From IMG/VR virus record IMGVR_UViG_3300022074_000147, positions 1 to 36,889 of that record: a DNA stretch of 36,889 bases; one strand, given 5' to 3'. This stretch comes from a virus. The translations under genes were made by a program, and so were the position numbers. Each line of letters starts with the position of its first letter. Position 1 is the stretch's first letter. The notes beneath the pieces are model-generated. The model was not told where the DNA came from, ran no database searches, and worked only from the letters and a program-made list of their open reading frames with translations. This document shows, piece by piece, positions 2,917 to 20,239 of this stretch.

Positions 2917-4055
2917 TAGATTTCCCTCCCACGACGATTGACTCTTCTACCTAGACCAGAGTTGGTTGATCTATCTATTTTAAGTTGACCCTTAGGATTA
3001 GATGATCTAAGTTTACCAGATGTACCTAGATTAGCAGCACCTTTCTTTGTACCTAGATTAGCAGCGGGATCTCTATTAACACCTGTAACCATGTTACGAG
3101 TAACAAATGCAGTCTCGTCAAATGTTAGACTCATACGATATGATGCTGGACCATAATCATCATCATCGAAACCACTACGTAAGGATGTATTTTGACCTGA
3201 TGGGGCAAGATCGACGTTCATATTGGTTAACACTAAATTTGTTGGGAATATTAGTAGACTACTGAGTGCTGCTGGTTTATTAAGACCTTCTCCTACAATA
3301 TCATTACCAAAACCCCTAGGTGTATAACGTACTATCTCTGTACGGAAGAATCTAGGAATAGATAACCAACGAGCGTTTGCTCCATTAGTATCTGGAAGCA
3401 TACTTTCACGAAAACAACTGATTATACCTTGGATTTCTTCTGCTTCTGCGGGATTACGAGGTGACATATCAAAATCAAAAGAATGAGAGCGATAGTTGAC
3501 CCCCTTAAACACAGTCTCTTCATATGGGTTGAATACTCTTCCCTTTGAGAGAGCAGATATGCCATTTTTTGAAACATTACCTTCTAATCCTAATGTACCT
3601 GTTGTACCGTTAAAGATACCAGCGATAGCACTAAATGCTATCTCACTTTTACCACTATCTGCTGCTTGACTTAACTTCTCTGCTATTTTATCTGTATCTG
3701 TTGCACCACTCTGTATCGCTTCTATTCCTGCACTACCAAAGGCACCGATTGATGCTTTCTCATAGTTTACACCATATGCTTCTTTTAATTGGTGTGGTAG
3801 ATAGAGATATATTGTCTTAAATATGCTGTTCTTATTGAAAGTTTGACCACCATCTTGCTTGGCACCCTTACCTCCACCAAGAGGTCCTGCTACATAGTTA
3901 TATGGATTAGCACCTTTTTCTGGATCATACACCGTGAATTTTAAGTAATCTACTTGTGCAGTAGAATACTGTGCTTCTGCTTTTATTCCTTCATCTCCCA
4001 CACCAGGTCCTCTGGGACTGGCATTTGGGTACATTAATCGTTGTTTTGATGACAT
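2916..4055 (-). CDS. gp48: gp48 baseplate tail-tube cap/initiator protein
   Basis: A 379-residue protein matching the gp48 family, which with gp54 caps the hub and starts tail-tube polymerisation. Visible family features are the start RLMYPNASPRGPGVGDEG, the central GVNYRSHSFDFDMSPRNPAE, the IPRFFRTEIVRYTPRGFG segment and MSLTFDETAFVTR near the end, followed by a basic Gly/Ser/Asn-rich tail (GLGRRVNRRGREI). Length is near that of T4 gp48 (364). Its start codon shares CATG with gp4 on the other strand, so its promoter must lie inside gp4; a TATAAATA box on the minus strand at 4126-4119 fits. gp53 follows with TAATG. Confidence 0.85.
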   Translation of the reverse strand: MSSKQRLMYPNASPRGPGVGDEGIKAEAQYSTAQVDYLKFTVYDPEKGANPYNYVAGPLGGGKGAKQDGGQTFNKNSIFKTIYLYLPHQLKEAYGVNYEKASIGAFGSAGIEAIQSGATDTDKIAEKLSQAADSGKSEIAFSAIAGIFNGTTGTLGLEGNVSKNGISALSKGRVFNPYEETVFKGVNYRSHSFDFDMSPRNPAEAEEIQGIISCFRESMLPDTNGANARWLSIPRFFRTEIVRYTPRGFGNDIVGEGLNKPAALSSLLIFPTNLVLTNMNVDLAPSGQNTSLRSGFDDDDYGPASYRMSLTFDETAFVTRNMVTGVNRDPAANLGTKKGAANLGTSGKLRSSNPKGQLKIDRSTNSGLGRRVNRRGREI

Positions 4056-4488: not shown

Positions 4489-4952
4489 GTGTATTTGAGG
4501 ATATTAAAGATTCCACAGGTGGATCAGCAAAGTCAAAAGAGTGGTATAGATCTAACTTAATCAGTAAGTTAAGTCCACCTCTTGACTTTAAAGTTGGTGA
4601 TGTCATCTATTATGCATATAATGCAGCAACAGATAACTTACCGTTCTATGATCAGTTCCCTATGACACTGGTTATTGACATCGACCCTATAAACAAGCAA
4701 TTCTCTGGTGGTAACTTACATTATCTACGCCCAACCGCACGACTAAGCATAGCGAAAACATGGGGAAGTGGTTCTATATCGTATCCTATGCGTTGCCATC
4801 ATAAATACTTTATGGGAAGAGCAACTAATATGATGTTAGTTCCTCCTTCTGACCTTGTTGACTTCGTACCATTACCAACAGAACAGTTTGTTAGGAGAAT
4901 TGGTGGAGTCTATGTTGAGATACCTAGTAGTTACATATGGAGTAGGTTGTAA
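4485..4952 (+). CDS. Conserved phage protein with FPMTLVIDID / LHYLRP motifs, unknown function
   Basis: A 155-residue soluble protein. It contains PPLDFKVGDVIYYAYNA, then LPFYDQFPMTLVIDIDPINK, FSGGNLHYLRPTARL and YPMRCHHKYFMGRATNMMLV. The combination of Y/W-D-x-F-P followed 15-25 residues later by NLHYL-P is a recurrent small-protein motif in many tailed phages, usually near head/tail genes. Its role has not been assigned to my knowledge. It is sandwiched between gp4 (ATGA overlap) and a tail-tube-type protein (TAATG overlap), which points to a virion assembly role. Confidence 0.7.
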   Translation: MSVFEDIKDSTGGSAKSKEWYRSNLISKLSPPLDFKVGDVIYYAYNAATDNLPFYDQFPMTLVIDIDPINKQFSGGNLHYLRPTARLSIAKTWGSGSISYPMRCHHKYFMGRATNMMLVPPSDLVDFVPLPTEQFVRRIGGVYVEIPSSYIWSRL

Positions 4953-5665
4953 TGCCCACTGTTAACAGTTTTAAAGATTTTAGAGAGACTATCGGTAGGT
5001 CTGCTGGTTCTATGCCAGCGACCAGTAACCTGTTTCAAGTCATCCTGCCAGTTCCTAAACTTATGAATGATTTGTATGACTCTAATAAGACATTAGATGC
5101 AATGAGAACTATTGATTACTACGCAACTAGCGTCACCCTACCTAGTAGAGCAGTAACAACTGGTGAACTCAATAATATAGGTCAGATTAGGAGATATGCG
5201 ACAGGACAGACTAACTCAGAAGTTAATATGCAGTTCTTAGTTAGTAAAGATAATAAACATAGAGCATATTTTGAGCATTGGATGCATCAAACAGCGTCTG
5301 ATTCAGATAATACAGTAGCATTCTACGATGATTATGTCTGTGATATAGAAATTGTCAAGTGGGAGAATATTGGGAACGAAGCAATGCAAGCAACAGGTAT
5401 GTACAAATTGTTTGGTGCTTTCCCATATAACGTTGGTCAGATGTCCCTAGACAACGAACAGGTAAATCTATTAAGCATGGATGTGTCATTCTATTTTGAG
5501 AGATATAGATTTGATCAAATATTTCCAGAGGCAATGAGACCGACATCAGACATATATGTTAAACCTCAGCACTATAAAGATACCAGTATTGCTGACTATC
5601 TAGACAACTATGAACCAGAGAACAAGATAAGTGATTATATGTTAGAGAATAACTTATTCTCGTAA
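4952..5665 (+). CDS. Tail-tube-fold protein, gp54/gp19-like (probable tail tube initiator)
   Basis: A 237-residue protein with the layout of the T4 tail-tube fold: N-terminal SNLFQVILPVPK strand, YYATSVTLPSRAVTTGEL (the typical substitution of 'tail tube' families in which a strand leads to a P-x-R turn), YATGQTNSEVNMQFLVS, WENIGNEAMQATGMYKLFGAFPYNVGQ split around the conserved Y-x-x-F-G-x-F-P turn, and a final LSMDVSFYFERYRF strand. gp19 (tube), gp48 and gp54 share this fold. Because it sits with baseplate genes rather than with sheath gp18, gp54 (initiator) is my preferred reading, although it is shorter than T4 gp54 (320). Confidence 0.65.
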   Translation: MPTVNSFKDFRETIGRSAGSMPATSNLFQVILPVPKLMNDLYDSNKTLDAMRTIDYYATSVTLPSRAVTTGELNNIGQIRRYATGQTNSEVNMQFLVSKDNKHRAYFEHWMHQTASDSDNTVAFYDDYVCDIEIVKWENIGNEAMQATGMYKLFGAFPYNVGQMSLDNEQVNLLSMDVSFYFERYRFDQIFPEAMRPTSDIYVKPQHYKDTSIADYLDNYEPENKISDYMLENNLFS

Positions 5666-5699: not shown

Positions 5700-6401
5700 A
5701 TGCCATTACCAAAACTTGTAGTGCCTGAGTATGACTGTAAGTTACCAGTCAGCGGAAAGAAGGTTAACTTTCGTCCATTTCTCGTAAAAGAAGAGAAACT
5801 ACTGTATCTCGCAATGGAGACACAGAAGGAGAAAGAAATGATCAAGGCAGTCAAGACTATATTAAAATCTTGTACTGATTTGAAAAGTGTAGATAGTCTA
5901 CCAACATTTGAACTAGAATATTTGTTCTTACAGATCAGATCCAAAGCAGTTGGAGAAGAGAGTGAGTTCAAAGTAGTATGTGAGGATGACGGTAAGACCG
6001 AGGTAGAAGTCAGACTTGACTTAAACGAAGTCAGCATAGACGTACCAAAAGGTCATAAGAGTATCATACCACTAAGTGACGACATCAAGATTCAAATGAA
6101 ATATCCTGCACTGGATGCGTTCGTTGATCGCAATATGATGGATGATCCTGATGTTGATGACGTATTTGCTCTTGCAGCAGACTGTATTGATAAAGTATAT
6201 GATGGAGATGAGATCTATGATTCTTTCACAGTGAAGGAAGCAAAGGACTTTATAGGTGATATGAATAATGCACAGTTCGCCAAGATCCAGAACTTCTTTG
6301 AGACTATGCCTAAGTTAACGCATACCTTACAAGTAGAGAATCCTAAAACCAAAGTTATTAATGAAGTGAAGTTAGAAGGACTTGCTGCTTTTTTCGGGTA
6401 G
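5700..6401 (+). CDS. gp26: gp26 baseplate hub subunit / tail assembly chaperone
   Basis: A 233-residue protein resembling T4 gp26 (208 aa), a hub assembly factor: MPLPKLVVPEYDCKLPVSGK start, RPFLVKEEKLLYLAMET, then FELEYLFLQIRSKAVGE, then KIQMKYPALDAFVD, and a C-terminal helix KIQNFFETMPKL. These 'P-F-x-V-K-E-E-K-x-L-L' and 'L-E-x-L-F-L-x-I-R' motifs are characteristic of the gp26 family. The gene ends GLAAFFG-stop over a six-T run that forms a perfect -1 slippery heptamer (6389-6395), allowing a fusion to gp51. Order gp26-gp51-tape measure parallels lambda G-T-H. A late promoter box lies at 5670. Confidence 0.85.
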   Translation: MPLPKLVVPEYDCKLPVSGKKVNFRPFLVKEEKLLYLAMETQKEKEMIKAVKTILKSCTDLKSVDSLPTFELEYLFLQIRSKAVGEESEFKVVCEDDGKTEVEVRLDLNEVSIDVPKGHKSIIPLSDDIKIQMKYPALDAFVDRNMMDDPDVDDVFALAADCIDKVYDGDEIYDSFTVKEAKDFIGDMNNAQFAKIQNFFETMPKLTHTLQVENPKTKVINEVKLEGLAAFFG

Positions 6402-6455
6402 CATTAATGCATGACAGTCTTATGAATCACTATAAGACAAACTTTGCATTAATGC
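6389..6455 (+). promoter_or_regulatory. Putative programmed -1 ribosomal frameshift site joining gp26 to gp51
   Basis: At the end of gp26 the codons GCT TTT TTC form the canonical slippery heptamer T_TTT_TTC (6389-6395), two codons before the TAG at 6399-6401. A -1 slip continues in the frame of gp51: LAAFF then RVALMHDSLMNHY, with no stop before 6598, giving a 299-residue fusion. Five bases after the heptamer begins a perfect 11-bp stem: GCATTAATGCA (6401-6411) pairs with TGCATTAATGC (6445-6455), loop 6412-6444. The 5' arm contains the gp51 ATG (6407), so the same structure could mask independent initiation. Slippery site, spacer and stem are seen directly; frameshifting itself is inferred. 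Confidence 0.7.
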
Positions 6456-6598
6456 AGCATCACAAGTATAGTCTGACGGAATTGAACGATATGATTCCTT
6501 GGGAACGTGATGTTTATATTAACCTATTGATAGCACACTTAAAGGAAGAAGAAGCACGCATAAAAGCACAACAGAATAAAGGTAAATCCTCTATCTAA
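6407..6598 (+). CDS. gp51: gp51-like baseplate hub assembly catalyst (small; may be made as gp26 fusion)
   Basis: A 63-residue helical protein: NHYKTNFALMQHHKYSLTEL then MIPWERDVYINLLIAHLKEE. The M-I-P-W-E-R-x-x-Y-x-x-x-L motif followed by a charged helix is typical of the C-terminal 'T' portion of tail assembly chaperones and of the small gp51 of cyanomyoviruses (T4 gp51 is longer, 249 aa). Position directly after gp26 and before the tape-measure genes supports this. The ATG at 6407 lies in a stable stem and lacks a Shine-Dalgarno, whereas the frame is open back to the slippery site in gp26, so the main product may be a frameshift fusion. The stop overlaps the next ATG (TAATG). Confidence 0.6.
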   Translation: MHDSLMNHYKTNFALMQHHKYSLTELNDMIPWERDVYINLLIAHLKEEEARIKAQQNKGKSSI

Positions 6599-8757
6599 TG
6601 GCAGCAACACTAAGAGAATATATTAGCATCAAACCGCCTAGTGGTAATTCGACACAGGTCAAAGCGATGCGTCCTCTTATAGTCGGTCAAAACAGACTAG
6701 GTGGAGCAGTTTCATATTTTGGTACAATAGTAGAAGATCTTAGAGAGATTATGATGGTTCATGCAGATGCTACCACAGCATTTGTAGAAGAAGAGAAGAA
6801 GATAAACGATGACGAGCATCTACATCGTTCTGACATAATCAAACCTTTAACATCATATACAGAGATAGGTAAGAAAAAGGATAAAAAGTCTGAGGTTTTA
6901 CAGGAAAAGAATGCCGATGACGACGAAGACAAAGGTAAGAAGTTAGCAAAGGACGAAGAGAAGGAAATGTCATGGTTTGGAAAGTTTATGAAAGGTATAG
7001 CACCTCTCATAAAGTTTCTTAGTACAGCATTTACAACTTTCTTAACTTATGGTGCATTTAAGTGGTTGGCAGATCCTAATAATACTAAGGCAGCATCAAC
7101 AGTACTCAAAGCAGTTAGTGGCATAGTAGGTTTTGCCATGAAGTTAGGTGGTCTTGGTATATCACAGACGATGGATGGTATCACCAGAGTATTTGGTGTT
7201 AACCCAGATAGTAAAGGTATAGGTAAAGTATTTGACAAGATGTTTGGTGTCTTCCAGATAGTAGGTGGACTCTCAACACTATGGGCAGCGTCAAGAGTAT
7301 TGATGCCATGGAAACTTGTAGGTGATGTCAAGATGATGAAGAGACTTGGACAAATATTAAAGCAAATCAAGAACGTTTTCAACGTTAAAGGACCAAAGGT
7401 AACAAAGGGACAAGGTGGAAAGGTAAAGGGTAGACCAAAAGTAAAGATTACTGGTAGTAAAGTTGGTTTGAAGGATCGTGCCAAACAGTTTGCTAAGACT
7501 CAGGTCAAGAAAGTAAAGAATATTCGTGCTGGTCTTAGTAACCTAGGTAGTAACATAGGTTCTAACATAGGCAACTTCATAGAGAAGGCAAAGAATACAA
7601 AGTCATCTATTGTTAGTAATGTAAAGAATATTGCAGGGAAGGCAAATAAGTTTGTAACGAAACACGGAAAAACAGCATACAACTGGGGTAAAAACCAAGC
7701 AAAGAATATAAGCAACCTTGCTGAACTTGTTAAAGATCCTAAGAAATTAGCATCAACGGTACAAACAAGGTTAAAGGATACTCTTAAACCTGTTATTGAG
7801 AAGAACCCTACAATTAAGAAGTTATTAAACTTAAAGAATGTTCAGAAAGCAAAGAATATTGCTAAGACGACTGTAAAAGCAGCGATAACCAGCAAAGAAA
7901 TGAAAGATTTAAGTAAGTTCTTAAAGGGTGCTAAGGATAGATTTAAAATAGGTGGTATTGATAAAGTTATAGCAGCAGTCATGGGACTCATAAACTATGG
8001 TTTGGGTGAGTCTCCTATCAATGCTCTTATAAATGCAACTGCTGGATTACTAGGATACTCTGCTGGTTTTGCACTTGGTGCTCCTTTTGGTGGTGTCACT
8101 GGATTTCTTACAGGTGCAGTTGGTGGTATTGCTGGTGACTATATTGGTAATCTATTATTAAAAGGGATGGCAAAGACCCCTGGGGTCAAGAAGTTAACTG
8201 AGATACAAGATCCACTCGCTCCTGCGATGGGATTATCAGAGAGACCATTACTTAGAGATTTAAATCCAAAGCGTGTAGAAAATATAGTAAAATCAAAGAT
8301 ATCCATAGTAAATGGTGTAATTGTAGAGGATTCACTTAGTGGTTCCTCTACAATCAATGGGAAACCGCAAGAGATGGCACAGGGTGGTATGGTTGAACCA
8401 ACAGAGAATCTAGGACAGAGAGTTAAAGGTAAGAAAAATCCAGGTGTGTACAGCGAACAGTTACATAATTTGTTCAAAGGCGTACAACATAATCAAGCAA
8501 CACCTATGACAAGTCTTGCTTCACCTGTACTGGATCTTAAAGTTAATGAAACCAATACTACAACATTACCTACACCCACGATAAATAACAAGGTAGGTAC
8601 TCTTACATCTTCATCGGAAGCAAGGGTTCAACGTAGTAAAGAAACTACGAGAACTACAAGACTTATGGTAATGAGGCAGCAGATAATACGTTCTGTACAA
8701 ACTCCTCCACCAAGAGTCCTAGATGCATCCAAATCAGTTAGTCCCTTAATCACATAA
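6598..8757 (+). CDS. Tape-measure-like tail protein, paralogue 1
   Basis: A 719-residue protein with a charged N-terminal coiled region (LGGAVSYFGTIVEDLREIMM, later Lys/Asp/Glu-rich to ~120), a hydrophobic block ~130-240 (IKFLSTAFTTFLTYGAFKWL), a long very basic helical middle ~255-460 full of KN/AK repeats, a Gly/Ala-rich hydrophobic block ~465-525 (LLGYSAGFALGAPFGGVTGF) and a Thr-rich tail. Alternating helices and membrane-like segments are typical of tape-measure proteins, which set tail length and can be ejected into the host envelope. It lies right after the gp26/gp51 chaperones, as tape-measure genes do. The first 240 residues align in layout with the next gene. The T4 counterpart would be gp29; sequence identity to gp29 is not obvious. 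Confidence 0.6.
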   Translation: MAATLREYISIKPPSGNSTQVKAMRPLIVGQNRLGGAVSYFGTIVEDLREIMMVHADATTAFVEEEKKINDDEHLHRSDIIKPLTSYTEIGKKKDKKSEVLQEKNADDDEDKGKKLAKDEEKEMSWFGKFMKGIAPLIKFLSTAFTTFLTYGAFKWLADPNNTKAASTVLKAVSGIVGFAMKLGGLGISQTMDGITRVFGVNPDSKGIGKVFDKMFGVFQIVGGLSTLWAASRVLMPWKLVGDVKMMKRLGQILKQIKNVFNVKGPKVTKGQGGKVKGRPKVKITGSKVGLKDRAKQFAKTQVKKVKNIRAGLSNLGSNIGSNIGNFIEKAKNTKSSIVSNVKNIAGKANKFVTKHGKTAYNWGKNQAKNISNLAELVKDPKKLASTVQTRLKDTLKPVIEKNPTIKKLLNLKNVQKAKNIAKTTVKAAITSKEMKDLSKFLKGAKDRFKIGGIDKVIAAVMGLINYGLGESPINALINATAGLLGYSAGFALGAPFGGVTGFLTGAVGGIAGDYIGNLLLKGMAKTPGVKKLTEIQDPLAPAMGLSERPLLRDLNPKRVENIVKSKISIVNGVIVEDSLSGSSTINGKPQEMAQGGMVEPTENLGQRVKGKKNPGVYSEQLHNLFKGVQHNQATPMTSLASPVLDLKVNETNTTTLPTPTINNKVGTLTSSSEARVQRSKETTRTTRLMVMRQQIIRSVQTPPPRVLDASKSVSPLIT

Positions 8758-10910
8758 TGGCAAAAGCAAGACTATACAAAATGGTAAACTCTGGTGTCAT
8801 GAAGAAAAGTGGCATCACAGTTAAGGTTGGAAATAAGGTTGTCACTCAACCTACTATCAATTTCACTAAGAATATTAGTGCGATTAATAGTATGGGTGCT
8901 ACTGTTAATAGTATTGCAGTTCTTACAGAAGAGTTAAAAGAATCATTCCAAACATATTCTTTGAAGAGTATATCCAATATGCAGGGGTTACTTGATCAAA
9001 GAAAAGATCATCTGGATAATGAAAAGAAGTTAAGAAAGAGTGTAGCGAAAGAGGAAAAGGTAAAAAAAGGTAAGCAAGCGGACGAACTTTCAGAGAAGAA
9101 ACAAGAAAAGACCACAGTAAAGAAAAGTGTTCCTGTTATCAAACAGGTTGCTAAGGCAGCGTTTGGTTTCTTAGAAGGTATAGCAAAACTATTTGCTGGT
9201 CTCTTCACTAAGTTTATAGGATATAGCGTATTCAAATGGATGTCGAGTCCTAATTCAGTTAAGAAGTTGTCAAGTCTTATCAAAGGTATAGGACATATGG
9301 TTAAGTTCTTTGCACAGGTTGCTGGTTTTGTATTCAGTTTTGGATTGGATGGGTTGACTGATTTCTTTAATAACCCTAATATATTCAGTAAGATATTTGG
9401 TTTAGGAAAGTTCATGGTGGCACTAGGACTATTCTTTAAACCTGTGATGATGGCAAAGTTAGGTCTTGCTGGTGCCAAGGGTGTACTAACTCTATTCAAA
9501 TCTGGTAAGTTAATTACTGGTCTAAAAGGATTGTTCGTTGGTATTGGTGGTTTAATTAAAGGACTGATGGCATTAGTGTCTGGTATAGGGTTAGGTCCAT
9601 TACTCTTAGGTGGTGCTGCTATCGTAGGTGGTGCAGTGTTGTTAAACCAGATGAAAGATGTCGAGAAAGAAGATCTAACAGAGGTCAAAGAGGATGATAA
9701 TGCTGTCACAGCATTTGGGAAACAGGGTGGTCTTGCTGGTTTCTTGAATCGAAACGTCCTTGGTGGTGGTGAAGAGAAAGAAGAAGAAAAACCAGCATTA
9801 GCAAAGGGTGGTTGGATACAAGGTCCTATGTCGGGATATCCTGTGTCATTAGATGGTGGTAAATCTACCTCATTCATAGGACATGGTACAGAGTATGTTG
9901 CTACACCTGAGATGGCAGTAGGTGGAGGACCACTTGGACAAGCATTTGTTGTACCTTATGACACACCAGCAACAAGAACAAGTCCTGGGTTGACAAACAC
10001 TAGACTACTACAAGCAAAGTCTGCTGGATTTAATGTTGCACCCATGGCAGCGGGTGGACTACTAGAATCTATTGGTAATGTGATAAGTGCACCACAAATT
10101 CCTTATAATGAAATTGAAAGTAAGATAGGTGCAGACAAGAAAACATGGGATATATTTAGAGATACTATCGCTGGTATAGAGTCAAGCGGTAAGTATAAAG
10201 TATATGGTGGTAACAATGACATGTATGATGGTAGATATCAGATGGGTAAACTTGCTAAGATGGATGGTGCTCGCATCATGAACCAGAAGGATCCAGGTCA
10301 TAGTGACGATCCTAATAAATTCATGCGTGTCATGTTCAGAAACAATAAAACTATGCAAGAGAGATTGTTCGCTGGATACACTATCGCTAACCACAACTAT
10401 CTTTCCTCAGTGAAAGAATATGCAGAAGCAGATGCACTTAGAAAATTACAGATACTAGCATACGCACATAACCAAGGATGGCAGGGTGCTAAGACATATG
10501 TAAAGGAAGGAACAGTAGGTTCAGATTCCTTCGGTACAAAAGGAACTGACTATACTAATGCAATCAAAGCAGCATTTGAGTCAAACAATTTAACACCACA
10601 AATAAAAGAGGTATCCTCAGTACAGAACACAGTTAAGAATATAATTAGCAAGACACAACAGATAGCGCAGAATATTATGTCAGGTGATTCTATAAATGAA
10701 TCATCATTGAAAGATGTAGAGTCAAACGAATCATCATTCCAAGTGGTAGCAGGAGATTTAGGTCCTATTGATCTATCAACTGAACCAATAAATCCACCAC
10801 CAATAATCACAGGTGGTGGTTCACCATACGTGATCCCTGCTAATGCATATGTCAAACCAAGGTTCGGTTTACTTGCTGATGTTGCATCTAATCCAGTTGA
10901 GATCTCATGA
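8757..10910 (+). CDS. Tape-measure-like tail protein, paralogue 2, with C-terminal transglycosylase-like domain
   Basis: A 717-residue protein paralogous to the preceding gene: N-terminal MGATVNSIAVLTEELKESFQ, charged region, then hydrophobic block ~140-300 (LFTKFIGYSVFKWMSSPNSV; GIGGLIKGLMALVSGIGLGP). A linker with PMSGYPVSLDGG and IGHGTEYV, motifs frequent in tape-measure C-termini, leads to a soluble domain ~460-615 that looks like a soluble lytic transglycosylase: FRDTIAGIESSGKYKVYGG with candidate catalytic Glu475, then YDGRYQMGK and LAYAHNQGWQGA. It would cut peptidoglycan during DNA entry, replacing the lysozyme that T4 carries in gp5. A TAATG overlap links it to paralogue 1; its 3' end overlaps the hub gene by 4 bases. 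Confidence 0.65.
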   Translation: MAKARLYKMVNSGVMKKSGITVKVGNKVVTQPTINFTKNISAINSMGATVNSIAVLTEELKESFQTYSLKSISNMQGLLDQRKDHLDNEKKLRKSVAKEEKVKKGKQADELSEKKQEKTTVKKSVPVIKQVAKAAFGFLEGIAKLFAGLFTKFIGYSVFKWMSSPNSVKKLSSLIKGIGHMVKFFAQVAGFVFSFGLDGLTDFFNNPNIFSKIFGLGKFMVALGLFFKPVMMAKLGLAGAKGVLTLFKSGKLITGLKGLFVGIGGLIKGLMALVSGIGLGPLLLGGAAIVGGAVLLNQMKDVEKEDLTEVKEDDNAVTAFGKQGGLAGFLNRNVLGGGEEKEEEKPALAKGGWIQGPMSGYPVSLDGGKSTSFIGHGTEYVATPEMAVGGGPLGQAFVVPYDTPATRTSPGLTNTRLLQAKSAGFNVAPMAAGGLLESIGNVISAPQIPYNEIESKIGADKKTWDIFRDTIAGIESSGKYKVYGGNNDMYDGRYQMGKLAKMDGARIMNQKDPGHSDDPNKFMRVMFRNNKTMQERLFAGYTIANHNYLSSVKEYAEADALRKLQILAYAHNQGWQGAKTYVKEGTVGSDSFGTKGTDYTNAIKAAFESNNLTPQIKEVSSVQNTVKNIISKTQQIAQNIMSGDSINESSLKDVESNESSFQVVAGDLGPIDLSTEPINPPPIITGGGSPYVIPANAYVKPRFGLLADVASNPVEIS

Positions 10911-12475
10911 GTACCGCTAAGAGTTATAAACTAACCAAAGTTGATGTCATCCTTTCTAATGGTGAGAATATAGACATCAGGGAAATTATCAGTGAATATA
11001 ACTGGTATGAGTCGATAGATTCTGCATTCATAAGATGTGATTTTACTATCTTAGATACTATCCAGTTTGATGATCAGATACTAGGTAGTGAACAGATTGA
11101 TATAACATTTGAATCTACTATGTACAAAGGTTCTAGAATCAAAAATTCATTACAGATATACAAGATAGGAGCAGTAGTAAAACAAGAGAGATCAAAGTTA
11201 TACATTCTACATTGTGCATCACCTGAGATATATCAGAATGAAGCGAACCGTGCGTTCGGACAGTTTGGACCTGTCTCTGGTAAGGTAGATATCGTTGGGA
11301 TGATGGTCAAAGGAAATTTAAAATCAGATAAGAAGTTGCATGTGGAGGAACATTCTTCTATGAATGTATTGTCACCTAACTGGCGTCCTCTTGATCTTAT
11401 CTCTTACATATCTGATAAGGTTACTAGGAAACAAGGTAAAGGGAAGAAAACCAAAGGTAAAGGTAAAGATCAGAGTGGATTCTTATTCTGGGAGAACAAA
11501 CATGGATGGAACTTTAAGTCCATGGACCTGTTATGTGAACAGGATAGTCGGGCAACGTACACATATGCACAAGCAAACGTTGGTCGCAGTGATCCAGAAA
11601 GAAACTTCTATCAGATAGAGTCGGTCACTTATCCTGAGAGGGCAAACCAATTAGATAAGTTACGTTCTGGTGTGTATAAACAATGCACCTATGGTATTGT
11701 TATGGCACAACTTACTGACAGTTTTATACCCAACCCAGGTGCTACATCATCACAGGCATTTGATGCTTTTGATGCACTAAACCAAGGTTATCAACCAACC
11801 ACAGACAGCACATCAAACAATTCATTAAGCAACGATCAGTTAAAGACTTTATATGATGCAGAGAATAAAACATCAAACAAATTCTTCAATGCTGGCACTG
11901 ATACATCATGGTCATGGAAACCAAAGAATCTAGGTGAAGCAAAAATATTGTCTGATAGACAGTTACAATTAAAAGACAAGGAAGGTAAAGCGTCAGGAAC
12001 AATGAGTGGACCTCTTGTGTCTAACCTGTTATCTGTATTCAATAAAGCATCTAAACTACATGAGGGTTTACCGTACGATGAGGTACATGTAAAGGCATAT
12101 AAAGACTTGTATCCTACAAGAACTAAGTTCAAGATCCTACCTGGATTCAATAATCAATCACCTAATGCACCGAAAGGTGGTGCTGACAATGCAGATATAA
12201 GTGTTTTAACTGCTGCAACATATTCTGCTGCACGTTGGTCACTACTTAATACTCACTCTCTCACTATCAAAGTCCCAGGAAATACAATGTTAGCAGCAGG
12301 GGATGTCATCACTGTTGTTCTACCTTCATCACAGCAGCAAGGTAAGACAAAAGTGATAAGAGATCAGACATTTTCTGGTAAATATCTAATCAAAGGACTG
12401 AAACATACCTATCAAAAACAGGGTATCACAACAGAACTCTATTTGTGTAGGGGTTCCTTGCCACCTACTAAATGA
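10907..12475 (+). CDS. gp27-like baseplate hub protein
   Basis: A 522-residue protein with the build of phage tail hub proteins of the gp27/gpD class: N-terminal KVDVILSNGENIDIREIISE and SAFIRCDFTILDTIQFDDQI (two tube-like strands), IYKIGAVVKQERSKLYILHC, then WRPLDLISYISDKVTRK and SGFLFWENKHGWNFKSMDLL, the 'F-x-x-E-N-x-x-G-x-x-F-x-S-I-D-L-L' motif seen in gp27-type hubs of many myophages. A Lys/Gly-rich insertion (KGKGKKTKGKGKDQ) and a Ser/Thr/Asn-rich linker ~275-310 separate the domains. It ends with a beta segment (LIKGLKHTYQKQGITTELYL). The trimer would bridge the gp5 spike and tail tube. It lies downstream of the tape-measure genes and before the CP12 island and gp5. Confidence 0.7.
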   Translation: MSTAKSYKLTKVDVILSNGENIDIREIISEYNWYESIDSAFIRCDFTILDTIQFDDQILGSEQIDITFESTMYKGSRIKNSLQIYKIGAVVKQERSKLYILHCASPEIYQNEANRAFGQFGPVSGKVDIVGMMVKGNLKSDKKLHVEEHSSMNVLSPNWRPLDLISYISDKVTRKQGKGKKTKGKGKDQSGFLFWENKHGWNFKSMDLLCEQDSRATYTYAQANVGRSDPERNFYQIESVTYPERANQLDKLRSGVYKQCTYGIVMAQLTDSFIPNPGATSSQAFDAFDALNQGYQPTTDSTSNNSLSNDQLKTLYDAENKTSNKFFNAGTDTSWSWKPKNLGEAKILSDRQLQLKDKEGKASGTMSGPLVSNLLSVFNKASKLHEGLPYDEVHVKAYKDLYPTRTKFKILPGFNNQSPNAPKGGADNADISVLTAATYSAARWSLLNTHSLTIKVPGNTMLAAGDVITVVLPSSQQQGKTKVIRDQTFSGKYLIKGLKHTYQKQGITTELYLCRGSLPPTK

Positions 12476-12746: not shown

Positions 12747-13325
12747 ATGTTTATTGATGTTGACGCACCTTATAGTTTTATAGGTGGGTCAAAGATAGAT
12801 CATGCGGTAGTAGATGGAGTCGTAGACTTCTGGAACACATGTGACTACTTACAAAAAGAAGAAGGTCACACAGGTAAGGGTGTTAACAAGGATCTAAAAG
12901 ACTCCCTTGACTTAACCCTTCCAAGATATATCAAAGACAAAAGAATAACAGATTACATTGACGCTCTTGCAGAGGTCACGAAGGAGTATTGCAACAAATA
13001 TTATACTCTTAAATCTGTTAAGTGGGATTTATTAGAGGATTTTAATATACAGTGGTACCCCAAAGGTGGGGGATTTCATTCGTTACATTGTGAACGAAGT
13101 GATGCACACCCACAGTGTGCAGGCAGAATCTTGGCATGGATGACTTACCTAAATGATATACAAGAGGGTGGTGAAACATTCTTTGAGTATCAGCAATGTA
13201 AAGTGAAACCAGTCAAAGGTCTGACATTGATTTGGCCAGCGGACTGGACGCATTTTCATAAAGGATGCCCAGCACCCAACGAAGAGAAAATGATTACTAC
13301 TGGATGGTATGACCTCACTTTTTGA
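12747..13325 (+). CDS. 2-oxoglutarate/Fe(II) oxygenase, prolyl-4-hydroxylase-like
   Basis: A 192-residue single-domain protein with the double-stranded beta-helix signature of the prolyl-4-hydroxylase superfamily: FNIQWYPKGGGFHSLHCE, RILAWMTYLNDIQEGGETFF and LIWPADWTHFHKGC, then EEKMITTGWY. Metal ligands are probably His114, Glu116 and His171, with Lys181 binding the 2-oxoglutarate carboxylate. The usual H-x-D is H-x-E here. The substrate is unknown; such enzymes are common in cyanophages. It follows CP12 by three bases and overlaps the CpeT gene by 17 bases, so the three form a compact metabolic unit. Confidence 0.85.
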   Translation: MFIDVDAPYSFIGGSKIDHAVVDGVVDFWNTCDYLQKEEGHTGKGVNKDLKDSLDLTLPRYIKDKRITDYIDALAEVTKEYCNKYYTLKSVKWDLLEDFNIQWYPKGGGFHSLHCERSDAHPQCAGRILAWMTYLNDIQEGGETFFEYQQCKVKPVKGLTLIWPADWTHFHKGCPAPNEEKMITTGWYDLTF

Positions 13326-13809
13326 GTCCATGATTCTTGGACAATTCCGTAACAGGAAACAGGCATTTACGAACCCAACTAAATGGCCACAGATCAACGT
13401 TTTGTATCAAAAACTGGCAGACAATATATTAGATTTAAAGCAATGGTATAACTACCAGACAGAGGAAACTGCATACAGGCACTATCATTTAACGTGTGAG
13501 TATATTGATGAACATACTGTCATTACGTCAGCATTCAATATAGATACACAGACAGATGGTTGTCAACTACAATGGGGTTACTATGGTGGTTGGTGGTTTG
13601 GTGAAGTGAGAGGTGATTGTATCCTTAGGAATACAAGAGTTAGTAGTGAGATATCATTTAATGGAACGCTATATCAATCACGCGATACTGGTATAGATAT
13701 AGATACAGGAGAGTTCAGATGGGGTAAAGAGGAGGAAGAAGGACTCTTTCGTTTTGAACGTCTAAATACTGAAAGGGAGTACGATTTAACAAATGTCACT
13801 AGGAACTAA
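13309..13809 (+). CDS. cpeT: CpeT-like phycobiliprotein lyase
   Basis: A 166-residue protein of the CpeT/CpcT family, chaperone-like lyases that attach bilin chromophores to phycobiliprotein beta subunits. Family landmarks: GQFRNRKQAFTNP (the G-x-F-x-N-x-x-Q-A start), a basic ...YRHYHLTCEYID strand region, TDGCQLQWGYYGGWWFGEV, GDCILRNTRV and SRDTGIDIDTGEFRWGKEEE before the terminal LFRFERL strand. The upstream ATG (13309) is preferred over ATG 13330 because residues before GQF align with the family; it overlaps the oxygenase by 17 bases. Cyanophage CpeT is a known auxiliary gene and may serve bilin binding or pigment maintenance during infection. The 3' end overlaps gp5 by 17 bases. Confidence 0.88.
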   Translation: MTSLFESMILGQFRNRKQAFTNPTKWPQINVLYQKLADNILDLKQWYNYQTEETAYRHYHLTCEYIDEHTVITSAFNIDTQTDGCQLQWGYYGGWWFGEVRGDCILRNTRVSSEISFNGTLYQSRDTGIDIDTGEFRWGKEEEEGLFRFERLNTEREYDLTNVTRN

Positions 13810-17282: not shown

Positions 17283-17495
17283 ATGTTTATGATAGAGGGA
17301 CTACCCTTTACCTTTGAGGAAGAGGGGTTTGATCGTTTAGATCCTTCTATCATTGCAGAAGCAGTTAACAACGAAATGATAACACTTGAACAAATGTACC
17401 AATGGTCATGTTACCTAGTATATGAGGGCATGCACCCCATAGTCTATGATCTCTCCGAGGAGATCGCAAATTATCACGACATCCCCGATTTATGA
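17283..17495 (+). CDS. Small acidic protein of unknown function
   Basis: A 70-residue acidic protein (FMIEGLPFTFEEEGFDRLDP; MITLEQMYQWSCYLVYEG). ATG 17283 is chosen because AGGA lies at 17270-17273 with nine bases between; a GTG at 17226 in frame would add 19 residues and overlap the preceding gene. The stop overlaps the gcvP start (ATGA), so translation of gcvP may depend on this gene. No family recognised. Confidence 0.5.
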   Translation: MFMIEGLPFTFEEEGFDRLDPSIIAEAVNNEMITLEQMYQWSCYLVYEGMHPIVYDLSEEIANYHDIPDL

Positions 17496-20239
17496 CAGAA
17501 TTTATAGGAAGACACATAGGACCTTCCGAAGAAGAGCAGACCCAAATGTTAAATGACTTGGGTCTTTCTAGTATGGATGAATTGATAAGAGACGTTATAC
17601 CTGACTCTATTCTATTAAGAGGAGGAGACGAGCACCTACCAGAACCTTGTAGTGAGCAGCAAGCACTGGATGAACTGAAAGAAATTGCATCATTTAATAG
17701 AGTAAGGAGGTGTCTAATTGGACAAGGATATTATGGAACAATTACACCGTCTGTCATACAGAGAACTGTTTTTGAGAATCCAGCGTGGTACACATCTTAT
17801 ACTCCATATCAGGCAGAGATTTCACAAGGAAGATTAGAAGCACTGTTTAACTTCCAGACATTAATAACAGAACTAACAGGACTACCAATTACAAATGCAT
17901 CTCTCTTAGATGAGGGAACTGCTGCTGCTGAGGCAATGATTATGACACAGCAGAGAGATAAGGATGTATTTCTAGTTGATAGTAAGATATTTCCACAGAC
18001 ATTAAAAGTATTACAGACAAGAGCAAGACCGTTAGGTATAAAGATTCAACCTATTGATTTAGATGTAACTATAAACTTAGAGGACTTTGAGCAAGCATTT
18101 GCTATTATAGTTCAAATGCCTAACAATGAAGGCAGATTAAAACATAATGATGGACTACTGAGGTGTGCAGAGGTATTTAATTGTGCAAAGATCGCTATTG
18201 TGGATCCTCTATGTCAAGTAATAATGAAACCAGTAGGAGAGTGGGGATTTGATGTAGCAGTTGGTAGTATGCAGAGGTTCGGAGTTCCTATGGGTTTTGG
18301 AGGACCACATGCAGCATTTTTTGCAACCACAGAACAATATAAGCGTAAAATTCCTGGACGTATTGTTGGGCAGTCGATAGATAGTCAAGGTAACAAAGCA
18401 CTACGACTAGCACTACAAACAAGGGAGCAGCACATAAGACGAGGAAAAGCAACATCAAATATATGCACTGCCCAAGCACTCCTTGCAAATATGGCAGGGT
18501 TTTACGCTTGTTACCATGGCGCGGAAGGTCTGACAGAAATAGCAGATAGAATACTCCGATATAGGCAAACGTTAATAACAGCATTGAAATGGTGTGGTTA
18601 TGAGACTGACGACAGAGAAGGATTTGATACTGTAAGGTGGAAATCTGATAAACTTGTAGATGATATTAGTATCAGATATGAGGATGGATGGAACATCCTG
18701 TCTATTGATGAGAGATCAACACTACCAGAACTAGCAGCAATAGTCTCTACACAGGTAGACTTTGAAAATAAAGCAGATACAATAGACCATGTACATGATA
18801 TCTATAAGAACTATCATTGGTTGAGTGTACCTCGGAGAACTAAACCATGGTTACAACAACCATGTTTCAATAAGTATCGAAGTGAAACTAACATGATGAG
18901 GTACATACATGAACTAGCATCGAAAGACTTCTCATTAGTAAATGGTATGATGCCACTCGGTAGTTGTACTATGAAATTAAATGCAGCATCAGAGTTGATG
19001 CCTGTATCATGGGAGGAGTTTGGTAGAGTGCATCCATTTGCACCGTTGGCACATATCAGAGGGTATCATAAACTTGTAGCACAGTTAGAGACATGGTTGC
19101 AAGACATCACTGGATTTGATTCAGTTACAGTACAACCAAATGCAGGGTCGCAGGGAGAATATGCAGGACTGTTAGCAATACAAGGTTATCATAGAGATAG
19201 GGGTGATGATAAACGAAACGTTTGTTTAATACCAGAGTCTGCTCATGGGACAAATCCCGCTTCTGCTATCATGGCAGGGTTAAAAATTATCCCTGTGAAA
19301 AATGACTCACAGGGGTCGATAGATATTCATGATCTAAGAATAAAAGCATGCTTACATGCTGATGAGTTATCTTGCTGTATGCTTACATACCCATCAACTC
19401 ATGGTGTGTTTGAAACAGACATCCGAGAGATATGTGGTATTGTGCATGAGTTTGGTGGACAGGTGTATATTGATGGTGCAAACATGAATGCACAGGTTGG
19501 ATTGGCAAAACCAGGGGAATTTGGTGCTGATTGTATGCATTTGAATTTACATAAGACATTCTGTATTCCACATGGAGGTGGAGGACCTGGGGTTGGACCT
19601 ATATGTGTATCAGAACATCTTGCACCTTTTATGCACGAAAGAGTATCAGCAGCAGAATATGGTAGTGCGTCCATATTACCTATCAGTTGGATGTATATTA
19701 GAATGATGGGTTCAGAAGGACTCAGGAAAGCAAGTGAAGTTGCTATATTAAGTGCGAACTGGTTATCTAAGAAGATAGACAACTATTTCAAGGTATTATA
19801 TAAAGGAGAGAATGGTAGAGTGGCACATGAATGTATATTTGATATAAGAGGATATGATGGTATAACAGCAGAAGACGTTGCCAAAAGACTGATGGACTAT
19901 GGATTTCATGCACCAACCCTGTCGTGGCCAGTGTCTGGGACTGTAATGGTAGAACCAACCGAGAGTGAATCACTAGAAGAGTTAGAAAGATTTGGTGAAG
20001 CAATGAATATGATCAGATGTGAGATAGATGAACAACCCGAATTATTGAAGAATGCACCACATACAGCACAGATGATTGCATCCGATGAATGGAACTATCC
20101 ATACTCACGTCAACAAGCAGCATACCCAGTAGAACAGACAAATAAGTTCTGGCCAGCGGTGTCGCGAATAGATAATGTCTATGGTGATCGTAACCTTGTG
20201 TGCTCTTGTTCAGATTACTTTTCCGAATCGTATAAATAA
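17492..20239 (+). CDS. gcvP: Glycine decarboxylase P-protein (glycine cleavage system)
   Basis: A 915-residue, full-length single-chain P-protein (cellular ones are ~950-980). It decarboxylates glycine on pyridoxal phosphate and passes the aminomethyl group to the lipoyl arm of H-protein; T- and L-proteins then give methylene-tetrahydrofolate, ammonia and NADH. The N-terminal half starts FIGRHIGPSEEE and has TNASLLDEGTAAAEAM; the C-terminal half has MMPLGSCTMKLNA, PNAGSQGEYAGLLAIQGYH and PESAHGTNPASA. The PLP lysine is Lys688 in NLHKTFCIPHGGGGPG, with the Gly-rich loop intact. No frameshift or lost key motif is seen. T, H and L genes are absent from the window, so host partners are needed. 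It lies between gp5-linked small genes and the fibre module. Confidence 0.95.
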   Translation: MTEFIGRHIGPSEEEQTQMLNDLGLSSMDELIRDVIPDSILLRGGDEHLPEPCSEQQALDELKEIASFNRVRRCLIGQGYYGTITPSVIQRTVFENPAWYTSYTPYQAEISQGRLEALFNFQTLITELTGLPITNASLLDEGTAAAEAMIMTQQRDKDVFLVDSKIFPQTLKVLQTRARPLGIKIQPIDLDVTINLEDFEQAFAIIVQMPNNEGRLKHNDGLLRCAEVFNCAKIAIVDPLCQVIMKPVGEWGFDVAVGSMQRFGVPMGFGGPHAAFFATTEQYKRKIPGRIVGQSIDSQGNKALRLALQTREQHIRRGKATSNICTAQALLANMAGFYACYHGAEGLTEIADRILRYRQTLITALKWCGYETDDREGFDTVRWKSDKLVDDISIRYEDGWNILSIDERSTLPELAAIVSTQVDFENKADTIDHVHDIYKNYHWLSVPRRTKPWLQQPCFNKYRSETNMMRYIHELASKDFSLVNGMMPLGSCTMKLNAASELMPVSWEEFGRVHPFAPLAHIRGYHKLVAQLETWLQDITGFDSVTVQPNAGSQGEYAGLLAIQGYHRDRGDDKRNVCLIPESAHGTNPASAIMAGLKIIPVKNDSQGSIDIHDLRIKACLHADELSCCMLTYPSTHGVFETDIREICGIVHEFGGQVYIDGANMNAQVGLAKPGEFGADCMHLNLHKTFCIPHGGGGPGVGPICVSEHLAPFMHERVSAAEYGSASILPISWMYIRMMGSEGLRKASEVAILSANWLSKKIDNYFKVLYKGENGRVAHECIFDIRGYDGITAEDVAKRLMDYGFHAPTLSWPVSGTVMVEPTESESLEELERFGEAMNMIRCEIDEQPELLKNAPHTAQMIASDEWNYPYSRQQAAYPVEQTNKFWPAVSRIDNVYGDRNLVCSCSDYFSESYK
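20231..20238 (+). promoter_or_regulatory. T4-type late promoter box at the end of gcvP
   Basis: Exact TATAAATA overlapping the last codons of gcvP (TAT AAA TAA), 28 bases before the GTG start of the fibre gene at 20267. It would open the late transcription unit of the fibre module. Confidence 0.65.

Follow-up and report, generated by a model that had tools for sequence, protein, structure and literature searches.

The tail-assembly chaperones G and GT of phage lambda are encoded by a gene that follows the tail tube gene and precedes the large tail ORFs, and the long form is the result of a −1 shift at a slip site, the heptamer GGGAAAG, located near the 3′ end of the gene. Phage T4 was considered an exception to the conserved G-T frameshift in a 2016 review (PMC5009743). 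The tail-assembly chaperones of T4-like phages were identified by Vladimirov, Gautam and Davidson in 2022 (Virology 566:9), and this work, as cited in PMC10885494 and PMC12846349, already includes poly-T −1 signals in some of these chaperones as well as the split between lineages that use the frameshift and those that use two genes. The TAC locus of Vandenendeviridae and Andersonviridae, which belong to other phage families, has a different motif, GTTTTT, but resembles the locus described here in that TAC-N ends with a poly-T −1 signal and is followed by an open −1 frame, usually misannotated (PMC12846349). In T4, gp51 is needed for assembly and is absent from the final particle (PMC3004832). 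Sullivan et al. noted in 2010 that ~200 residues are missing from the start of gp51 in cyanophages and marine vibriophages and that no gp51 is present in Aeh1 (PMC3037559).

In the public record of phage Konradin, gp26 and gp51 are already called tape measure assembly chaperones. Together with Vladimirov et al. 2022 as cited, this indicates that the phage-tail frameshift principle, T4-like phages included, is already known; the sequence-only reading of the DNA analysed here, which named no such description for these genes, had overlooked that the T4-like chaperones and their frameshift or two-gene organization are published (PMC10885494, PMC12846349). In the literature consulted, in which Vladimirov et al. 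2022 is represented by the papers that cite it, we found no statement of a near-invariant heptamer in Kyanoviridae, of missing gp51 starts, or of a downstream structure that is selected but shifting.

The window, i.e. the whole stretch of DNA analysed, corresponds to a 36,889-base viral record in IMG/VR and includes structural genes of a marine T4-like cyanophage (Table 1). We consider it very probable that its gp26/gp51 locus encodes two tail-assembly chaperones, the long form being produced by a −1 ribosomal frameshift that joins gp26 and gp51. The gp26 product matched PF12322 (T4_baseplate) over its full length (E=2.2e-68, 230.7 bits with a cut-off of 24.5) and positions 5-232 of the phrog_150 profile (E=1.5e-74). 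The gene ends with the codons GCT GCT TTT TTC GGG TAG, which place T_TTT_TTC in the 0-frame phase expected for a −1 shift, base for base where the sequence-only reading had located it. The −1 frame from nucleotide 6395 reads RVALMHDSLMNHYKTNF... up to a stop codon at 6596-6598, so that a shift would open 69 codons into gp51; the stop-free path and the 299-amino acid length of the gp26-51 fusion, both proposed earlier, were recovered from the sequence and the ORFs. This −1 region matched phrog_634 (E=2.4e-30) and positions 236-281 of phrog_150. The sequence TTTTTTC occurs once in the window when both strands are considered. The 11,952 codons of the called genes include 47 in-phase X_XXY_YYZ sites, and T_TTT_TTC is the only one of them that lies close to the end of a gene and leads into a long open −1 frame.

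Table 1. Features of the gp26/gp51 locus and its immediate neighbours in the window
Feature	Coordinates	Strand	Remarks
Tail-tube-like gene directly upstream of gp26	4952..5665	+	phrog_45 tail tube, E=2.9e-39
gp26, predicted short (N-only) tail-assembly chaperone	5700..6401	+	233 aa, ends ...LAAFFG*; PF12322, phrog_150
Candidate slippery heptamer T_TTT_TTC, −1 phase	6389..6395	+	T-run in 77/77 representatives <80% identity
−1 frame open region RVALMHDSL..., predicted C-terminal domain of long chaperone	6395..6598	+	phrog_634, phrog_150; conserved in A5
gp26 stop TAG	6399..6401	+	One sense codon past slip site
Basal stem, 5′ arm, containing gp51 ATG	6401..6411	+	11/11 pairs
gp51 ORF	6407..6598	+	Inside −1 open region; ATG at 6407-6409, 5 bases past gp26 stop
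Inner hairpin, 8 bp (6417-6424 with 6431-6438)	6417..6438	+	86.5% paired, 12 close relatives
Basal stem, 3′ arm	6445..6455	+	Pairs with 6401-6411
Two large ORFs directly downstream of gp51, expected tape-measure position	6598..10910	+	Tape-measure identity putative

Relatives of the locus were taken from annotated phage records and viral contigs. The first set consisted of 81 gp26 ends, each of them with the exact T_TTT_TTC; the total of 121 gp26 ends comprises 108 with TTTTTTC, five with TTTTTTT, one with TTTTTTG and seven without a perfect heptamer. In a representative set of 77 relatives (<80% identical), every gp26 ends over T_TTT_TT(C/T/G), with C as the last base in 71, followed by 0-1 sense codons before the stop and by an open −1 ORF of 57-71 amino acids. 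The heptamer and the open −1 junction, whose alignment across relatives had been suggested by the sequence-only reading, are therefore kept in all the representatives. Relatives with the slip site include Kyanoviridae, Straboviridae (Aeh1, phiAS5, VH7D) and Menderavirus; a Rhizobium phage has T_TTT_TTG, and Pelagibacter and Methylophilales phages have T_TTT_TTT. Single-protein scans with the Vibrio, Stenotrophomonas and Serratia gp26 yielded two loci each. The site of distant relatives (Serratia 3M, Vibrio K413, Pseudomonas Cygsa01) is G_GTT_TTC, A_CTT_TTC or C_ATT_TTC, and the −1 frame is open. Such altered sites were located near nucleotide 3250 of L013 (Serratia 3M), 2250 of L116 (a 3M relative), 3085 of L012 and 2800 of L120, and in all of them the −1 frame runs without a stop into a gp51-like domain. 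The G_GTT_TTC of Serratia 3M is identical to the sequence at the annotated frameshift of T7 gene 10 (10A/10B), although the T7 site serves a capsid protein and the window uses T_TTT_TTC. A separate observation concerns record L099, which shares 99% identity with Stenotrophomonas phage Moby: its slip-site run (nucleotides 2225-2290) has five T's instead of six, which would correctly join neither frame and may be a sequencing error.

The T-run could be incidental to a Phe-Phe pair if gp51 were a separate gene, translated from the ATG at 6407 by coupling to the gp26 stop codon. The proximity of this ATG to the stop and the short standalone gene annotated in public records agree with this possibility, but we judge it very improbable for several reasons. 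One is the choice of codons, which is far from that predicted by usage. All 77 representatives have T as the third base of the codon preceding Phe-Phe (log10 P ~−20) and TTT, a codon with a usage of 61%, for the first Phe (log10 P ~−16.5); both probabilities ignore shared descent and therefore overstate the independence of the sequences. The final T of the preceding codon is constant even when the amino acid varies (Ala, Ser, Asp, Asn, Thr), and none of 82 other Phe-Phe pairs in the same genes reads T_TTT_TTC. The T4 gp26 protein retains Phe-Phe, but it is encoded as G_TTC_TTT, without a slip site. Codon choice at this site thus goes well beyond what Phe-Phe requires, and this pattern indicates codon-level selection on the slip site.

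The distribution of start codons is also at odds with a separate gp51 gene. No ATG, GTG or TTG is found in the first 10 gp51 codons past the slip site in 20 of the 77 representatives, and the codon index of the first ATG varies from 1 to 33. Shine-Dalgarno-like sequences precede 4 of 73 early gp51 starts versus 33 of 76 gp26 starts, and the −1 frame is open and conserved (RxAL) upstream of any gp51 start. Since early starts are missing from 20 of 77 representatives, gp51 appears to be mainly the C-terminal portion of a frameshift product; some separate gp51 may be made, as the window and many relatives do have an ATG. Public annotations of S-H38 and ACG-2014g place the gp51 start ~90 bases after the gp26 stop, which cuts off conserved residues. 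In the Aeh1 record gp51 is unannotated and the −1 frame is intact; we located it at nucleotides 3202-3390 of that sequence (L009), directly after T_TTT_TTC. A gp51 that is missing the first ~200 residues (PMC3037559) is the expected product of a frameshift.

The fusion of gp26 and gp51 by a −1 frameshift would be aided by RNA structure, and the sequence-only reading had described a perfect 11-bp stem five bases downstream of the heptamer with its 5′ arm over the gp51 ATG. This stem was confirmed, with all 11 positions paired after a 5-nt spacer (6396-6400), i.e. within the distance of about 5-9 nt at which a downstream structure is looked for. Hiding the gp51 ATG is unlikely to be its main role because relatives are often without a start codon. 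A second helix of 8 bp lies inside the 11-bp stem and is conserved better than the stem itself, with a double compensatory change in L017. Apart from the window, the full 11-bp stem was found in L001 and L015 alone, and L021 has 10 of 11 pairs. The covariation that the sequence-only reading had proposed to look for is seen as this change in the inner helix; the 11-bp stem is confined to the closest relatives. The stem of the window was also considered as a family-wide element and rejected (61% paired over all 84 sequences), RNAalifold gave no family-wide consensus fold on these 84 sequences, and pairing varies among relatives, some of which, e.g. L002, have almost no structure.

Of 3000 synonymous recodings, 3 equalled the stability of the fold downstream of the slip site in the window. 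Fold z-scores were calculated on the 60 nt right after the slip site, using shuffles that preserve the −1 frame protein. The mean was −1.9 (SE 0.2, n=77) just downstream of the slip site, and z ranged from −0.1 to −0.8 in gp26 or from ~24 nt further downstream. For 39 sequences <70% identical the near value was −1.61 versus a far value of −0.31 (Wilcoxon p=5e-5). The RNA downstream of the slip site has more structure than expected from synonymous recoding, which on these comparisons points to selection. Transcriptional slippage at the six-T run instead of ribosomal frameshifting, which could be considered since homopolymer runs can make polymerase slip and L099 has five T's (a sequencing error being as likely), is the least probable origin of the fusion, with hardly any chance of being correct, as a run of six bases is short, the strict X_XXY_YYZ phase, the final C in 71 of 77 and the downstream RNA structure are marks of ribosomal frameshifting, and the G_GTT_TTC of a distant relative, the T7 gene 10 sequence, has no long run.

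The relation to T4 was defined by profile comparison. T4 gp51 consists of a PF12322 domain (residues 1-201) and a C-terminal domain. The gp26 profile aligned with residues 6-187 of T4 gp51 (E=1e-6) and that of the gp51 (−1) domain with residues 210-243 (E=8e-4); likewise, T4 gp51 covers positions 13-280 of phrog_150, and the two frames of the window tile this profile at 5-232 and 236-281. Judged from these alignments, T4 gp51 is the single-gene version of the predicted gp26-51 fusion, with the same architecture end to end. Both systems belong to family PF12322 and have as products, predicted in the case of the window, a short N-only and a long N+C protein, but T4 encodes each of them in full in a gene of its own, the two genes being divergently oriented and devoid of a slip site, in contrast to the one gene plus a proposed −1 frameshift of the window. 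Phages with full-length gp51 (T4, 44RR, Konradin, CfP1) have no slip site at gp26. The programmed −1 frameshift that the sequence-only reading had proposed is supported by this match to T4 gp51 together with the invariant slip site, the open −1 junction, the frequent absence of gp51 starts and the selected downstream RNA.

That reading had also equated the locus with lambda G/GT. The gene position and arrangement are in favor of the equivalence, with the long form predicted in the window, but sequence homology to lambda G (PF06894) and T (PF06223) was not detectable by hhalign (E 0.27 and 0.47). The gp26 gene is found between a tail-tube-like gene and large ORFs whose tape-measure identity is putative. 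These ORFs had been described as tape-measure-like, a view that is weaker than first put, as neither of the two had convincing BLASTP similarity to the T4 tape measure gp29; in HTVC008M the corresponding region has a large ORF annotated as putative tail tape measure. In the window, nucleotides 6598-12475 include three large ORFs after gp51 with PHROGs annotations of 'endolysin', tail or unknown. Further features of the window are a CpeT-like antenna gene (phrog_488; 13309-13809), which points to a cyanobacterial host, and a match at 12747-13325 of the 2OG-Fe(II) oxygenase / DNA endonuclease-like type. A 915-amino acid protein (17492-20239), located in the structural gene cluster, spans all of phrog_22305 (E=0), a function-unknown family.

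The AlphaFold model of gp26 was confident (pLDDT 85) and, compared with a viral structure library, matched the gp26 family and a 'gp51 catalyst' of Acinetobacter phage ZZ1 (E=1.2e-4). Comparison with solved structures gave no significant match, the top one being the HK97 tail assembly chaperone 2OB9 (E=1.1). The −1 domain is predicted to be helical with moderate confidence, and had no significant fold match in the viral structure library.

We infer the slippage itself, its efficiency, the stoichiometry of the products and their chaperone function. Most ribosomes would stop at the gp26 TAG to produce the short chaperone, and a fraction would slip back one base on T_TTT_TTC, with TTT TTC re-paired as TTT TTT, aided by the RNA structure just downstream. 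The slipped ribosomes would produce the 299-amino acid gp26-51 fusion, which ends in a domain predicted to be helical. Judged from lambda G/GT, the tape measure may be coated by the domain shared by both forms, tail-tube subunits may be recruited by the C-terminal domain of the fusion, and neither form would be present in the virion.

With belief and doubt in equal measure, we propose that the −1 frameshift is ancestral and often the sole route to gp51 in T4-like phages, and that T4 and other phages with full-length gp51 replaced recoding with a duplicated, separately encoded long form, the Phe-Phe of T4 gp26 being what is left of a former slip site. Lineages that use the frameshift would have a frozen heptamer and a stimulatory RNA structure that was rebuilt repeatedly, with different pairings.

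The frameshift would explain why, in 2010, the gp51 of cyanophages was noted as 'truncated' and that of Aeh1 as 'missing' (PMC3037559), and it implies that gp51 is misannotated or unannotated in many public cyanophage records. Some T4-like lineages would then obtain the same protein pair by recoding and others from two genes, a natural experiment that could serve to test the benefit of a fixed ratio.
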